From: Bacteroidia bacterium
GTDB lineage: Bacteria; Bacteroidota; Bacteroidia; J057
Length of the DNA: 64,000 nucleotides
Assembly: GCA_030430205.1 (NCBI GenBank)
Contig: JAUIGE010000005.1
Span: forward strand, 124,001-188,000
Direction of reading: 5' to 3'
Translations under genes and position numbers: made by a program
The notes under the pieces: model-generated
What the model was told of the DNA's origin: nothing
Seen by the model: only the letters and a program-made list of their open reading frames with translations
Databases searched by the model: none
Part shown: positions 8,827 through 64,000 of the stretch, in pieces
Layout: the number at the start of each line of letters is the position of its first letter
Position numbering within the stretch: the stretch's first letter is position 1

Positions 8827-10284
8827 ATGAAAACACTACGCTTCATCCCCCTCTTTTTCCTCATCAGCCTCTTAGGCTGTAAGGAGCCTCAACTGATTGT
8901 AGACAATCAGCCTCCCCTGATCAATCCGCCGGTACCGGCGCTGGACCCTGCTTTTGACACCAAAAGCATTGATGCCGGACAAGGCGCAATCCTGCGCTAT
9001 GAGACTGGCTCTGTCGTGGTTATTCCGCCAGCTGCCCTGGTAGATGGACAGGGGCAGCCTGTTACGGGAAATGTGGATATTTCCTTCCGCGAATTTCATA
9101 ATGCAGCGGATATACTGCTTTCGGGCATCCCGATGGCTTATGACTCCGCCGGACAAACACAGCAGTTTCAGACTGCGGGTATGTTTGAATTGCGTGCAAG
9201 TAAGGACGGGCAGAAAGTATTTCTGGGAGAAGGCAGCATGGCCCAGGTGAAGCTGGCTTCACAGGAAACCGAAGACAATTACAATTTCTATCGCCTCGAT
9301 GAGGAGGCGCGTGGCTGGCAGTATGAAGGGCAAAGAAGCCCTGAAATAAACGAAAGTACCTTTGAAATCAACCAACGTCTCGCCGAACTGAAAAATACCC
9401 CCGGTAAGATGAAGCCTTTGGGAAGAAATGCTTTTGCATTTAATTATGAAGGCCTTTTGGATGTTTTTTATAATGAAAACCAGAACCTGATATACGAAAA
9501 CTGGGGGAAAGCAGGCACCAAAATCAAAGTCCTCTCCAAGGCCAGGGCCTACGGTTTGGAGTGCCTGGACTTTACGGTATATCAGCATATTGAGTGGAAA
9601 GGCCAAAGCATACCCGCCTGTATGATGGTGTGGGATCATCTGAACGATAAGCCTTTTCCCAAATGGGCAAAAAACGGCTGGAGCCACAAGCTGATGCGCT
9701 ACGATGGCGACATCTACAAGCTTGTGTTGATTGATGGGGAAATCAATTATTTCCTTACATGGGTGAAACCCGTGATGCCTTTAAGAGACCTCTTTGCTGT
9801 GCCTGTGTCAGGCTGGGAGGAGCAAAGTGCGGAGATCAAAGCCGCCATTGCAGCCGAAGAGGCTCGCCTCGCCAATGAAGCTGCTGTCATGCGCAGCTTT
9901 GAAGTGCGCGAGTTTGGCGTCTACAACTGGGACCGTTTCCTCAAAGAGGAAGATCCCATTCCCGTATTTGCCAACTTTGATTTTGGCAGTGAGCTAAACG
10001 AAGAAATCTTCGAGCCCGTGGTGTTTTACCTGCCTGGCGACAACCGCTCCGTGGTCAAAATGCCCAAATTTGCCTGGAAGGAATTTGCCGTCGCCAATGA
10101 TCCCGATGCACGTATGATATCGATACTACCAGGTCCACGGATCGCTTTATACAGCAAACAAAAGTACCGTGCCATTGATCGGGATGCCTTGCGGAAAGGG
10201 GAAAAGCCGTCCTATACCTTTGCGATGGAGGATATCGGTGCGCTGGAGTCGCAGGAGCAGTTGATGAAGATTTTGGGGATGTGA
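8827..10284 (+). CDS. Lipoprotein of unknown function
   Basis: 485 residues. The start chosen is the ATG at 8827, giving MKTLRFIPLFFLISLLGC, a lipoprotein signal with the lipobox LLGC, so the mature protein is lipid-anchored. The first 130 mature residues hold a beta-rich module (GAILRYETGSVVVIPPAALVDGQGQPVTGNVDISFRE) that resembles ZU5-like or carboxypeptidase-regulatory beta-sandwiches found in surface lipoproteins of Bacteroidota. The C-terminal half contains no motif I recognise. The ending DIGALESQEQLMKIL is helical. A promoter-like element for the next gene begins only a few bases after the stop codon. Confidence 0.85.
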   Translation: MKTLRFIPLFFLISLLGCKEPQLIVDNQPPLINPPVPALDPAFDTKSIDAGQGAILRYETGSVVVIPPAALVDGQGQPVTGNVDISFREFHNAADILLSGIPMAYDSAGQTQQFQTAGMFELRASKDGQKVFLGEGSMAQVKLASQETEDNYNFYRLDEEARGWQYEGQRSPEINESTFEINQRLAELKNTPGKMKPLGRNAFAFNYEGLLDVFYNENQNLIYENWGKAGTKIKVLSKARAYGLECLDFTVYQHIEWKGQSIPACMMVWDHLNDKPFPKWAKNGWSHKLMRYDGDIYKLVLIDGEINYFLTWVKPVMPLRDLFAVPVSGWEEQSAEIKAAIAAEEARLANEAAVMRSFEVREFGVYNWDRFLKEEDPIPVFANFDFGSELNEEIFEPVVFYLPGDNRSVVKMPKFAWKEFAVANDPDARMISILPGPRIALYSKQKYRAIDRDALRKGEKPSYTFAMEDIGALESQEQLMKILGM

Positions 10285-61449: not shown

Positions 61450-61456
61450 GGGGGGG

Positions 61457-61644
61457 GAACTCACCCCGCTGCGCCTTTGGCTCCGCTGCCCCTCTCTTGG
61501 GAAGAGAGGGGCACGTAGGCGTTTGGAACGCCAGCTTAGCCTGCGCATTGGCGCAGGGCTATCCGCAAAAATGAAATTTTTGCAGAAAGCCCCCTCTCTT
61601 GCCAAGAGAGGGGGTTTGGGGGTGAGTTCACAACCCAAAACGGG
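61457..61644. repeat. Direct repeat copy 1 (with inverted ends and stem-loops)
   Basis: 188 bp. An 11-bp left end GAACTCACCCC (61457-61467) matches the right end GGGGTGAGTTC (61619-61629) as an inverted repeat. Inside are consecutive perfect or near-perfect hairpins: CCCCTCTCTT..AAGAGAGGGG, GGCGTT..AACGCC, CCTGCGC..GCGCAGG, GCAAAAAT..ATTTTTGC and CCCCCTCTCTTG..CAAGAGAGGGGG. It starts seven bases after the stop of the histidine kinase gene. Additional GAGTTCACA words continue to about 61680. Confidence 0.95.
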
Positions 61645-61696: not shown

Positions 61697-62083
61697 ATGA
61701 CCTACGAGGCCATCAAACAATTCGCCAGAAACCTCCGCAAAAATCAAACGCCAGCAGAAGCTATCTTCTGGGAAAAGGTTCGAAACCGAAGGCTTGCAGG
61801 CAAAAAAATCAACCGCCAATTCGTCATTCAGCATGAAAATATCATGGGCAATCGGCGATTCTTTATCGCAGATTTTTATTGCCATGAGCAAAGGCTGATA
61901 GTGGAAATTGATGGAGGCATCCATGCACAGGTAGAGCAAATGGAATATGATCGAATCCGGGAAGATATCCTGGAGGAAATGGGATATAAAATCATTCGCT
62001 TTACGAATGAGGCGGTTTTGGAGGATTGGGGGAGGGTGGACGTGGCCTTGAAAGCTGCTTTGGAAGGGGAGTTGGAGTTGTGA
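61697..62083 (+). CDS. DUF559 endonuclease-like protein
   Basis: 128 residues of the DUF559 family, related by fold to very-short-patch repair endonuclease (restriction-endonuclease-like). The N-terminal pattern NLRKNQTPAEAIFWEKVRN is characteristic. The predicted catalytic residues are in the strand pair FIADFYCHEQRLIVEIDGGIH, with D59, E70, D72 and H76 likely involved. The ATG at 61697 lies just past repeat copy 1, and the stop TGA (62081-62083) abuts copy 2 directly. The family is often found next to repeats, and its physiological function is unknown. Confidence 0.9.
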   Translation: MTYEAIKQFARNLRKNQTPAEAIFWEKVRNRRLAGKKINRQFVIQHENIMGNRRFFIADFYCHEQRLIVEIDGGIHAQVEQMEYDRIREDILEEMGYKIIRFTNEAVLEDWGRVDVALKAALEGELEL

Positions 62084-62286
62084 GAACTCACCCCGCTTCC
62101 CTTCGGCAAGCTCATGGCAGGCTGTCTTCGACTCCGCTCTTGGGAAGAGAGGGGCACGTAGGCGTTTGGAACGCCAGCTTACCCTGCGCATGGCGCAGGG
62201 CTATCCGCAAAAATGAAATTTTTGCAGAAAGCCCCCTCTCTTGCCAAGAGAGGGGGTTTGGGGGTGAGTTCACAACCCAAAACGGG
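62084..62286. repeat. Direct repeat copy 2
   Basis: 203 bp. Left end GAACTCACCCC (62084-62094) and right end GGGGTGAGTTC (62261-62271). It carries the same order of hairpins as copy 1. About 15 bases longer than copy 1 near the left end (a differing stretch between CCGCT and CTTGGGAAGAG), plus one-base differences (GCATGGCGC in place of GCATTGGCGC). It begins immediately after the DUF559 stop codon. Confidence 0.95.
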
Positions 62287-62334
62287 CTAAGTTCCCAACA
62301 CAAAACAGACCAAGCCCCCAACCCAAAAAATCCC

Positions 62335-62347: not shown

Positions 62348-63199
62348 ATGACCCCCATTCACACCGAGCATCTCACCGATGCCCTACACTTCAACATGAT
62401 CCACATCGAAGGAGGAGAATTCGATATGGGTAGTGAAAGTGCGGAAGCACTTTCAAGGGAAAAACCCATCCATCGTGTACAGTTAGATGATTTCTACATG
62501 GCAGAATTTCCTGTTACCCAGGAAGTCTGGAGAGAAGTGATGAAAGAAAATCCTTCTCCATCCTATTTCACAGGAGACAGACGCCCTGTAGAACAAATTT
62601 CCTGGTACGATGCCATTGAATTTTGCAATGCTCTGAGTGAAAGGCAAGGGTTGAAGCCAGTTTATGAAATTGATAAGGAGACAAAAGATCCGAATAATAC
62701 CCATCAACTTGATGAGTTAAAGTGGTTGGTCACCATCAAGGATCAAGCTAATGGCTATCGCCTGCCCACAGAGGCAGAGTGGGAGTACGCCGCACGAGGA
62801 GGAAAATATAGCAAAGGCTACTTATATGCTGGCAGCAATAAACTCAAGGAAGTAGGTTGGTATGCTGAAAACAGCGATAGAGAAACCAAGCATGTAGGTC
62901 AATTGCAGCCTAATGAGCTTGGCTTATTTGAGATGAGTGGGAATGTGTTTGAGTGGTGCTGGGACTGGTTTGATAGTGATTATTACAAGGAATGTGCTAG
63001 TAAAACGCTAGAGAAAAACCCTGGAGGTCCTGGAGAAGGTGACGGCCGCGTCATTCGTGGCGGCATCTGGGGCGGCGATCCGCGGGGCTGTCGCTCCACG
63101 TTTCGCGGCAACTTCTGGCCGTACTACCGGCACGACGATCTCGGCTTTCGCCTTGTCTTGTCCCCCAGTCAGTTGGTAGTCGATCCTGCCTTCCTGTGA
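62348..63199 (+). CDS. DGR target protein with FGE/C-type-lectin fold
   Basis: 283 residues of the formylglycine-generating-enzyme/SUMF1 family. N-terminal IEGGEFDMGSESAEA and FPVTQEVWREVM, middle RLPTEAEWEYAARGG (about 137-151), MSGNVFEWCWDW, and C-terminal RVIRGG-x-W, CRS and LGFRLVL. In DGR target proteins this fold (C-type lectin) displays a variable surface. Fourteen codons in the C-terminal stretch 63065-63139 follow the pattern N-N-pyrimidine, as expected where a template has AAY codons, and framework residues R, W, P, CRS, T and LGFRLV lie between. The variable region has a higher G+C content than the AT-richer body. It is likely to bind a ligand rather than act as an enzyme. ATG at 62396 is an alternative start. 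Confidence 0.92.
   Translation: MTPIHTEHLTDALHFNMIHIEGGEFDMGSESAEALSREKPIHRVQLDDFYMAEFPVTQEVWREVMKENPSPSYFTGDRRPVEQISWYDAIEFCNALSERQGLKPVYEIDKETKDPNNTHQLDELKWLVTIKDQANGYRLPTEAEWEYAARGGKYSKGYLYAGSNKLKEVGWYAENSDRETKHVGQLQPNELGLFEMSGNVFEWCWDWFDSDYYKECASKTLEKNPGGPGEGDGRVIRGGIWGGDPRGCRSTFRGNFWPYYRHDDLGFRLVLSPSQLVVDPAFL
63059..63166 (+). other. Predicted variable region (VR) of the DGR
   Basis: Codons at 63065, 63071-63079, 63086, 63101, 63107-63115, 63122-63127 and 63131-63139 all end in C or T and encode varied residues (I, G, G, D, G, F, G, N, F, Y, Y, H, D, D). Invariant codons for R, W, P, C, S and LGFRLV lie between. The exact boundary with the template is not determinable because the template is not in the window. 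Confidence 0.75.
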
Positions 63200-63207
63200 G
63201 CAGGCGA

Positions 63208-63269
63208 GTCTCTCTGGTCAGCCCGAGCGGCGGAGAGGAACGGAGCCGGCGAGGGATGAAAAGAGAGAC
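63208..63269 (+). other. Stem-loop just downstream of the VR
   Basis: Perfect 8-bp arms GTCTCTCT (63208-63215) and AGAGAGAC (63262-63269) with a 46-base purine-rich loop. It lies nine bases after the target gene stop, where several DGRs have a hairpin that promotes mutagenic homing. Confidence 0.5.
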
Positions 63270-63319
63270 GAGCTTTCCGATTTTTTTGCTTTGGCAAGAA
63301 AAGATGGGATGTTTGCTAC

Positions 63320-63766
63320 ATGCAAATCAAAATATTCACCATACCCATCCTTGGCGGAGAAGCACTTAATGAAGAGATGAATCGCTTTCTTCGCGCCAAA
63401 AAGGTGCTCCAGGTCGAATCTCAACTCGTTCAACATGACCAAGGGGGCTTTTGGAGCTTTTGTGTTCGATATGTGGAGCAAGTTTATGAGTCTCCTGCCC
63501 AAAAAGGGAAAGTCGATTATAAAGAAGTGCTGGATAAAGCAAGCTTTGAGCGCTATTCCAAACTCAGAGAACTTCGCAACAGACTTGCGCAGGAAGAAGC
63601 GATTCCCGCCTTTGCCATTTTTTCGAATGAGGAGTTGGCAGGATTGGCGAAGCTTCAACGTATTACTTTGTCCAATATGAAAAGTATTAAGGGGATTGGG
63701 GATAAGAAGGTAGAAAAATATGGGCAGTATTTTGTGACGGAGCCTTTAAATGAAAAGAGCCAATAA
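63320..63766 (+). CDS. HRDC-domain DGR accessory protein
   Basis: 148 residues. Residues 1-65 are alpha/beta (MQIKIFTIPILGGEALNEEMN, FWSFCVRYVEQ). The C-terminal part matches the HRDC domain of RecQ and RNase D, which binds nucleic acid: SFERYSKLRELRNRLAQEE, then PAFAIFSNEELAGLAKLQ and IKGIGDKKVEKYG. HRDC proteins of this size are a recognised accessory in DGR cassettes in place of the Avd protein. The last codons overlap the RT start by 17 bases (ATG at 63750), a coupling that supports one operon. Confidence 0.88.
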   Translation: MQIKIFTIPILGGEALNEEMNRFLRAKKVLQVESQLVQHDQGGFWSFCVRYVEQVYESPAQKGKVDYKEVLDKASFERYSKLRELRNRLAQEEAIPAFAIFSNEELAGLAKLQRITLSNMKSIKGIGDKKVEKYGQYFVTEPLNEKSQ

Positions 63767-64000
63767 CCTCATCCAGGCCATCAGCGATCCTGACAACCTC
63801 CGCTGGGCATTCTTGAAAGCCAAAAAAGGAAAAAGCAATACAGCCCAGGTAGAAGCCTTTCGCCAAGATCTTGATACAAATCTACTTGAATTACAAAAGC
63901 AAATCCTCCAAGGCCCCCTGGAAGTTGGCGCCTATACCTATTTCAAAATCTTTGATCCCAAGGAGCGGGAAATTTGTGCGAGTACCTTTCGCGAAAATGT
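63750..64000 (+). CDS. DGR reverse transcriptase, N-terminal part (cut by window edge)
   Basis: 83 residues are visible. The start MKRANNLIQAISDPDNL is followed by the alpha helix LRWAFLKAKKGKSNTAQ, then FRQDLDTNLLELQKQI and YTYFKIFDPKEREICAS with TFRENV, the N-terminal layout of DGR-type RTs (finger region before motif 1). The catalytic YxDD motif is outside the window, so polymerase function is inferred. The start overlaps the HRDC gene by 17 bp. Confidence 0.88.
   Translation, partial: MKRANNLIQAISDPDNLRWAFLKAKKGKSNTAQVEAFRQDLDTNLLELQKQILQGPLEVGAYTYFKIFDPKEREICASTFREN

Follow-up and report, generated by a model that had tools for sequence, protein, structure and literature searches.

A diversity-generating retroelement (DGR) begins at the right-hand end of the DNA analysed here, a window of 64,000 nucleotides (nt) on contig C60 (G000:C60:124001-188000) of a draft genome of 7.24 Mb in 80 contigs, and we have followed it by reading the sequence onward to the right of the window edge. 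Behind its template repeat (TR1) lies a structured RNA tail, the beginning of which is antisense to the sequence directly 3' of the variable repeats (VRs) of its target genes. We propose that this tail could serve both as RNA primer and as 3' homology arm in the rewriting of the VRs, that a second tailed template (TR2, on contig C51) could be served in trans by the reverse transcriptase (RT) of the C60 element, and that the diversified FGE-fold proteins could be sensors for Roc-COR proteins. To this explanation as a whole, built from sequence comparison, we give a probability of about 60%.

An antisense match between the RNA tail and the VR flank

The tail covers ∼135 nt 3' of the template and is conserved in 25 aligned loci, for which RNAalifold gave a structure of 26 pairs, 22 of them with compensatory changes. 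The related loci used throughout are the best 80 of 259 returned by one scan, with RTs down to 50% identical to the C60 RT. A covariance model of the tail (R1) matched 71 of these 80 at E≤0.1 (weakest 0.012), with one match each and always on the RT strand; 23 of the 80 had trained the model and match by construction, and among the others the count was 48 of 57. In its own genome the model matched only behind TR1 (79 bits) and TR2 (112 bits). Among 395 sampled genomes of the class it matched in five, the same five that have an RT at least 53% identical, and it matched in four of 13 genomes of the family. When eight tail-bearing loci were compared with Rfam 15 at the gathering threshold, only a tRNA matched. 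Chlorobi-1, considered as a candidate identity for the tail, was discarded, as there was no Rfam match and one literature listing contained no paper tying it to DGRs.

In most loci the 30-odd bases directly 3' of the VR and those that open the tail are reverse complements of each other, in a match that is near-complete and carries compensatory changes. Over 84 VRs the mean local score of the flank was 17.2 with the own tail, 8.4 with other tails, 7.1 with the own tail in sense and 6.2 with shuffled tails. For 85 VRs of 68 loci the own mean was 17.16, whereas 2000 permuted pairings had a mean of 8.49 and a maximum of 9.95; with one VR per locus, the own tail was best or tied in 59 of the 68. 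Alignments scoring at least 12 were found for 74 of the 85 VRs, 38 of the 74 starting with the base that immediately follows the VR and 25 ending at the conserved UGA/ACAG site (between UGA and ACAG). The predicted duplexes of own pairs had an energy of -39.4 kcal/mol vs. -21.7 for 15 sampled other tails each, and were lower in 84 of 85 cases. In an alignment-free control on 62 of the 68 loci (six without an anchor were left out), tail nt 5-13 were Watson-Crick complementary at 0.82, compared with 0.43 in permuted pairings (maximum 0.51). Position by position, in an alignment that favours matches and includes 60 of the 68 loci, tail nt 5 pairs in all 57 loci aligned there, as CG (19), AT (19), TA (17) or GC (2). 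At C60 both targets have their stop codon within the matched flank; elsewhere the stop can lie inside the VR (in L144, FVP-stop at the VR end). The VR1 flank scored 18 with its own tail, 16 with the TR2 tail (tail 2) and 10.4 on average with other tails; for VR2 the own tail gave 20, tail 2 again 16, and the C51 flank scored 20 with its own tail vs. 11.

The same comparison was made in 14 other DGR records (BPP-1 and 13 of phages or plasmids), which held no convincing antisense arm beyond two weak signals, so that an antisense rule for DGRs in general is unsupported. One of these signals is in BPP-1 and is taken up below; the other, in an A/T-rich crAss-like phage, scored 11, with nine of 200 shuffles doing as well, and its sense score was higher still. 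An element with both HRDC and Avd on a Prosthecochloris plasmid showed no antisense arm after its repeat ends had been set by hand. As far as tested, the arm would thus accompany the HRDC-type lineage described below. We found no earlier description of an antisense tail in the literature listings or in the available parts of PMC3240598, PMC3521204, PMC7517822 and PMC12875486; key BPP-1 mechanism papers lie outside this scope, and priority is unproven.

The C60 element

The gene order at C60 is FGE target 1 with VR1, HRDC, RT, FGE target 2 with VR2, TR1, the RNA tail, an LRR-Roc-COR-CHAT gene and a third FGE gene (FGE3). The features are as follows (plain numbers are window positions):

62348..63199, + strand: DGR target 1, FGE-fold (C-type-lectin-like), 283 aa; Pfam FGE-sulfatase, E 4e-55
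63035..63168, + strand: VR1, 134 bp, 3' end of target 1; by alignment to TR1
63169..63200, + strand: 3' flank of VR1, including the target 1 stop codon; its antisense partner is the opening ∼30 nt of the tail behind TR1
63208..63269, + strand: inverted repeat 3' of VR1, with 8-bp perfect outer arms
63320..63766, + strand: HRDC accessory protein, 148 aa; Pfam HRDC, E 3e-16
63750..64000, running on to C60:188757, + strand: DGR RT, first 83 of 335 codons inside the window; YMDD, IGNLTSQ, PDB 8ub7_A
C60:188754-189602, beyond the window: target 2 (FGE), with VR2 at 189438-189571
C60:189724-189857 (L013 5724-5857), beyond the window: TR1, starting 966 bp behind the RT stop
C60:189858-190021, beyond the window: RNA tail of TR1
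C60:190076-193012, beyond the window: LRR-Roc-COR-CHAT gene, 978 aa
C60:193033-193779 (L013:9033-9779), beyond the window: FGE3, a diverged third FGE gene

Mismatches between template and variable repeat that fall at template A only are the hallmark of a DGR. Over 134 bp, 20 of the 35 template A are changed in VR1 and 23 of the 35 in VR2, and in both cases none of the 99 other bases is. TR1 has 20 A-bearing codons, only one of which is able to become a stop, allowing for ∼10^19 possible proteins. A preliminary description of the window's end had proposed a DGR from an FGE-like open reading frame (ORF) at 62348-63199, an HRDC ORF at 63320-63766 and an RT start at 63750, and all of these are present, as is the 17-bp overlap of the HRDC and RT frames (63750-63766). 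The DGR identity is borne out by the YMDD RT, a template within 3 kb and mismatches at template A only: the YxDD motif predicted to the right of the window is there as YMDD, the predicted template repeat is TR1, neither of the two outcomes named beforehand as refuting occurred, and VR1 lies close to the variable region expected at 63040-63190. In calling the cassette standard, the description was right about a true DGR and understated the rest, namely the VR2 between RT and TR, the structured antisense tail, a template elsewhere that has no RT of its own and the Roc-COR/CHAT gene behind. To judge from its sequence, the C60 element is a true DGR of an ordinary kind, and what sets it apart is the antisense-tailed template, the RT-less second template and the Roc-COR partners.

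The RT frame is full-length (335 aa), with YMDD and IGNLTSQ in its translation. The best solved relative in a PDB sequence search is 8ub7_A ('Reverse transcriptase', E 2e-36), which we take to be the BPP-1 DGR RT. The SQ motif is discussed as a feature of DGR RTs (PMC3521204). By phmmer, an HRDC match was found in 78 of the 80 related loci. The preliminary description had seen no Avd gene, and with three Avd queries phmmer found none in L013, the locus at C60, or in the 80 related loci, in a search that missed one annotated Avd (that of L209) among the 14 other DGR records used as controls. There it found Avd in 10 of 14, three being the query sources, and HRDC in only one, the Prosthecochloris element, which has Avd as well and no antisense arm. 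These data suggest that the C60 DGR belongs to an HRDC-bearing lineage in which Avd was not detected, although this lineage may have a remote one.

The closest match of target 1 by PDB sequence search is 2y3c, Treponema denticola variable protein 1 (E 1.6e-43), and 2y3c is also the best Foldseek match (TM 0.78) of its structure model (pLDDT 85), so that Pfam, PDB sequences and predicted structure agree on a C-type-lectin/FGE fold with the VR at the C-terminus. Judged by eye, target 1 has no signal peptide. FGE3 was considered as a third current target and rejected, because 30 of 102 non-A positions, besides 17 of 33 A, differ from TR1 (in a 135-nt window) and its flank gives antisense scores of only 9 and 6. 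It keeps a VR-like sequence that appears to have drifted from TR1, without an antisense flank, and could be a retired or a different target.

Behind VR2 there is an inverted repeat in the same place as that of VR1, its arms different and again complementary (9 bp). The 8-bp repeat of VR1 is not significant alone (20 shuffles: mean 6.0, maximum 9), whereas that of VR2 is longer than in any of its 20 shuffles; for 86 VRs together, the longest inverted repeat 3' of the VR had a mean of 8.1 vs. 5.9 in shuffles, which preserve base content only. The putative hairpin could correspond, in this lineage, to the cruciform of BPP-1. By eye, the repeat behind the 86 VRs (L013, L016 and the related loci) often has a core GAGGGACGA, with arms that are unconserved and yet complementary.

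A second cassette without an RT

Contig C51 (50 kb) carries, away from the contig end, an FGE gene with a VR, followed by TR2, a tail of the same kind and an LRR-Roc-COR-EAD11-TIR gene. Between TR2 and the C51 VR, 21 of 34 A and one of 99 other bases are changed. The C51 VR was written from TR2, because TR1 leaves 20 of 102 non-A mismatches (over 135 nt, which extend a few bases beyond the repeat). There is no RT match on this contig and no RT-like ORF in the 15 kb read. In the whole genome an RT is matched at three places, on C60, C13 and C31, and a search with the C60 RT as query at E 1e-20 finds only the first. The other two were rejected as helpers by eye: the C13 RT has YADD and QGAPSSP and lacks the SQ motif, and that of C31 is a fragment (L015:4052-5602) directly behind a cas1-like ORF, near genes resembling a type III CRISPR module. 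Taken together, the C60 RT probably serves the C51 cassette in trans.

Alternatively, the C51 cassette could be a relic, whose own RT was recently lost and whose diversification has ended. Decayed cassettes do exist, as in G431:C28, where the RT is only a fragment and the TR/VR pairs differ at 8-9 non-A positions, and the single non-A difference between TR2 and the C51 VR could be a beginning of such decay. Nevertheless, the TR2/VR pair is otherwise clean, its tail scores higher than that of TR1 on a contig where no RT matches, and a second clean RT-less cassette was found in another genome (G402:C288; 16 of 30 A and no non-A changed), so that we regard a relic as somewhat unlikely. This other cassette came from a genome-wide tail search covering 50 of the 80 related loci in 47 genomes (one locus was left out; searches over 40 genomes, this one and that of the 395 included, used stricter filters), which found the tail in 42 of the 47, and from an RT search in ten genomes (all eight in which the tail occurred more than once, plus two). 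The same searches gave a worn RT-less cassette in G431:C41 (six non-A mismatches in both pairs) and a weak RT-less tail match in G431:C2 with no TR/VR pair there; G405:C70 and G435:C54 end at contig ends before an RT could show.

A possible role for the tail in retrohoming

Understanding of how the cDNA of a DGR gets into the target is still described as incomplete (PMC12875486). On our proposal, the tail would fold on itself, with UCA (nt 2-4) pairing with UGA (nt 28-30) and enclosing a GGAU-loop hairpin, so that an RNA 3' end would be brought to the edge of the TR. From this end, at the conserved UGA/ACAG, error-prone reverse transcription of the TR would be primed, and the product would be a chimera of tail RNA (nt 1-30) at the 5' side and antisense TR cDNA at the 3' side, collinear with and complementary to the coding strand of the VR plus its flank. 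As the chimera would be complementary to this strand across the VR edge, it could anneal like an Okazaki fragment, with the RNA primer acting as 3' homology arm. In a target that is co-directional with replication, the coding strand is the template of the lagging strand. In BPP-1, editing is higher when the target has this orientation, cDNA synthesis is primed by an internal adenine of the spacer, and an Okazaki-fragment-like intermediate has been proposed by Naorem et al. (as cited in PMC12875486; all three from this source). If the tail alone marks a template, a single RT could also serve TR2 and the VR on C51. We see about an even chance for the most specific form of this idea, in which the template RNA is its own guide: ∼30 nt of it would be kept complementary locus by locus as primer and homology arm, the tailed RNA would be what the RT recognises as substrate, and RT-less cassettes could spread, each arming a different Roc-COR effector.

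Several observations weigh against this proposal. Two foreign tails slightly outscore the own tail for VR1, and VR1 and VR2 favour tail 1 over tail 2 only mildly. The scores of 11 of the 85 VRs fall below 12, including both VRs of L116, L125 and L136, and the pairing between tail and flank has mismatches and bulges. Besides, simple extension does not yield the VR junction, because one base of the tail, C1, separates the TR from the proposed primer end and nothing at the VR edge corresponds to it. The BPP-1 antisense signal is weak (12 vs. 7.5, with four of 200 shuffles doing as well), and a stem-swap mutant of the BPP-1 hairpin retains function (PMC3240598). Finally, for the action in trans the argument is that no other DGR-like RT was found in an 80-contig draft genome, and the sensor and effector roles are read from neighbourhood and domains.

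The main rivals to a primer and homology arm are the passive copying of the primer into the flank and a regulation of the target mRNA. In the first, the flank would be written by the element, the RNA primer being occasionally copied in together with the cDNA, and the complementarity would be a product of concerted evolution with no function in pairing. This would account for the own tail being the best in most loci and for the match often beginning at the VR edge. However, the C60 VRs equal TR1 at all 99 non-A positions and yet their flanks are mismatched and bulged against the tail, which indicates that the flank is not copied each time, and the paired letters stay complementary across loci with RTs as little as 50% identical to that of C60. 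We therefore consider this explanation unlikely.

A further possibility is an ordinary DGR at C60 that has become inactive, with all its features being historical, as the drift of FGE3 from TR1 might suggest. Two VRs with no non-A mismatch, a full-length YMDD RT frame and an intact tail make this quite improbable, and a degraded or inactive DGR had been dropped for the lack of non-A mismatches. An antisense regulation, in which the TR transcript adjusts target expression through the 3' end of the mRNA, with no part in retrohoming, would fit the stop codons in the matched flank of C60 and the stable own duplexes, but it requires neither a start at the VR edge nor an end at UGA/ACAG, some loci have the stop inside the VR, and the 9-nt BPP-1 match that ends at A56 (the presumed priming base) would be left aside, so that it deserves very little credence.

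With regard to this BPP-1 match, two 9-mers of the spacer match the VR in antisense, and one of them (nt 48-56) ends at A56, which is presumably the priming base; among 20000 shuffles of the BPP-1 spacer, 539 have at least one such shared 9-mer. The antisense arm would explain why the likeness between template and target ends at the VR edge, and a covarying arm that often starts exactly there makes retrohoming testable by compensatory mutation. Should the tail alone mark the template, new targets might become diversifiable by means of a short flank and a tailed template.

Roc-COR partner genes

A Pfam scan of nine proteins at the C60 and C51 loci found FGE, HRDC, RVT_1, LRR, Roc, COR, CHAT, TIR, EAD11 and TPR, and no NACHT or MoxR; other neighbours were seen as ORFs only. 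Within this scope, no STAND NTPase, MoxR or VMAP partner of a ternary conflict system was found. The C60 protein has LRR, Roc, COR-A and CHAT domains, and that of C51 has LRR, Roc, COR-A, COR-B, EAD11 and TIR. There are three COR-A genes in the genome, all near FGE genes, and those of C60 and C51 lie behind tails. The third, on C58, is an LRR-Roc-COR-EAD11-TIR gene head to head with two FGE genes and with no recognised template (L059:6158-11004); by eye, a CHAT-like gene nearby is similar to a TPR-CHAT gene on C51. Where 2.5 kb or more of sequence lies behind the tail, a Roc-COR gene follows within 3.5 kb on the same strand in 14 of 57 loci (13 of 56 relatives, and C60); 15 of 72 tail loci, on short contigs, were left out of this count. 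Anywhere in the fetched locus, such a gene was found in 16 of the 80 relatives. The C-terminal domain of 20 Roc-COR proteins scanned was TIR in eight, CHAT in four and caspase in two, with none seen in six; a caspase takes the C-terminal place in G284, a genome of the same genus (that of L091).

The FGE targets of both cassettes are thus probably conflict sensors, and the diversified FGE proteins probably serve as ligand sensors for the adjoining LRR-Roc-COR proteins, with the CHAT and TIR domains as effectors. Such an array, joining a hypermutating sensor gene to Roc-COR proteins with CHAT, TIR or caspase at the C-terminus, would be a candidate anticipatory bacterial immune receptor. Roc-COR conflict proteins with effectors of this kind have been described, and AP-GTPases appear there among the NTPases linked to FGS and DGRs (Kaur et al. 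2021; PMC8195603). The partnership of FGE and Roc-COR extends a known theme, because that work already links AP-GTPases, FGS and DGRs. A Roc-COR gene beside a DGR was found neither in the literature listings nor in the available parts of PMC8144416, PMC7159879, PMC10053308 and PMC10907252.

Comparison with known systems

The C60 element shares with the DGR of the Bordetella phage BPP-1 (Avd, TR, spacer RNA, bRT and Mtd) adenine mutagenesis between TR and VR, a related RT and a short collinear antisense match at the spacer, as well as a structured RNA 3' of the TR and a putative hairpin 3' of the VR (the last two described for BPP-1 in PMC12875486 and PMC3240598). It differs in having HRDC instead of Avd, in the position of TR and tail behind the RT and target 2, in an arm of ∼30 nt on the VR-proximal flank where BPP-1 has two 9-mers, and in its FGE-fold targets and bacterial host. 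TvpA of Treponema denticola (2y3c) is the closest solved structure to target 1 in both sequence and fold, but the DGR targets of that organism are outer-membrane lipoproteins (PMC10907252), whereas the C60 target, which lacks a signal peptide by eye, belongs to an array that includes a Roc-COR gene.

In Thiohalocapsa PB-PSB1 (Dore et al. 2024; PMC10907252), too, a single bacterium has several DGR loci, the lectin-fold targets are linked to conflict systems, and remote VRs are inferred to be served in trans. Its partners are STAND NTPases and MoxR ternary systems, and there a remote VR matches a distant TR, while in our case a remote tailed TR stands without an RT. The AP-GTPase (Roc)-COR and FGS systems of PMC8195603 have LRR, Roc, COR and swappable C-terminal effectors, and FGS occurs there with AP-GTPases and DGRs; those are domain combinations within one protein, in contrast to the array described here, in which a small FGE gene stands apart from the Roc-COR gene and a template RNA is included.

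Other observations

An orphan third TR-like sequence, WNNDASNCRVAYRNNNNHDNRNNHVGFR, is found at L058:9548-10086 (G000:C60:20547-21085), where no RT matches on that part of C60. By eye, it overlaps an Avd-like ORF of the opposite strand and adjoins an NTPase-like ORF. No VR for it was found among the FGE loci of the genome and five longer stretches scanned, and the best foreign candidate was rejected with 27 of 92 non-A mismatches. Directly before the C60 cassette there is a 128-aa ORF (window 61697-62083) that by eye has the look of a DUF559-type endonuclease. A recurring GAGAGGGGG motif with GGGGTGAG ends was seen by eye in intergenic stretches at window ∼61450-61640 and ∼62090-62290 and at L013 ∼9970-10070, and these stretches flanking the cassette may form a small repeat family.

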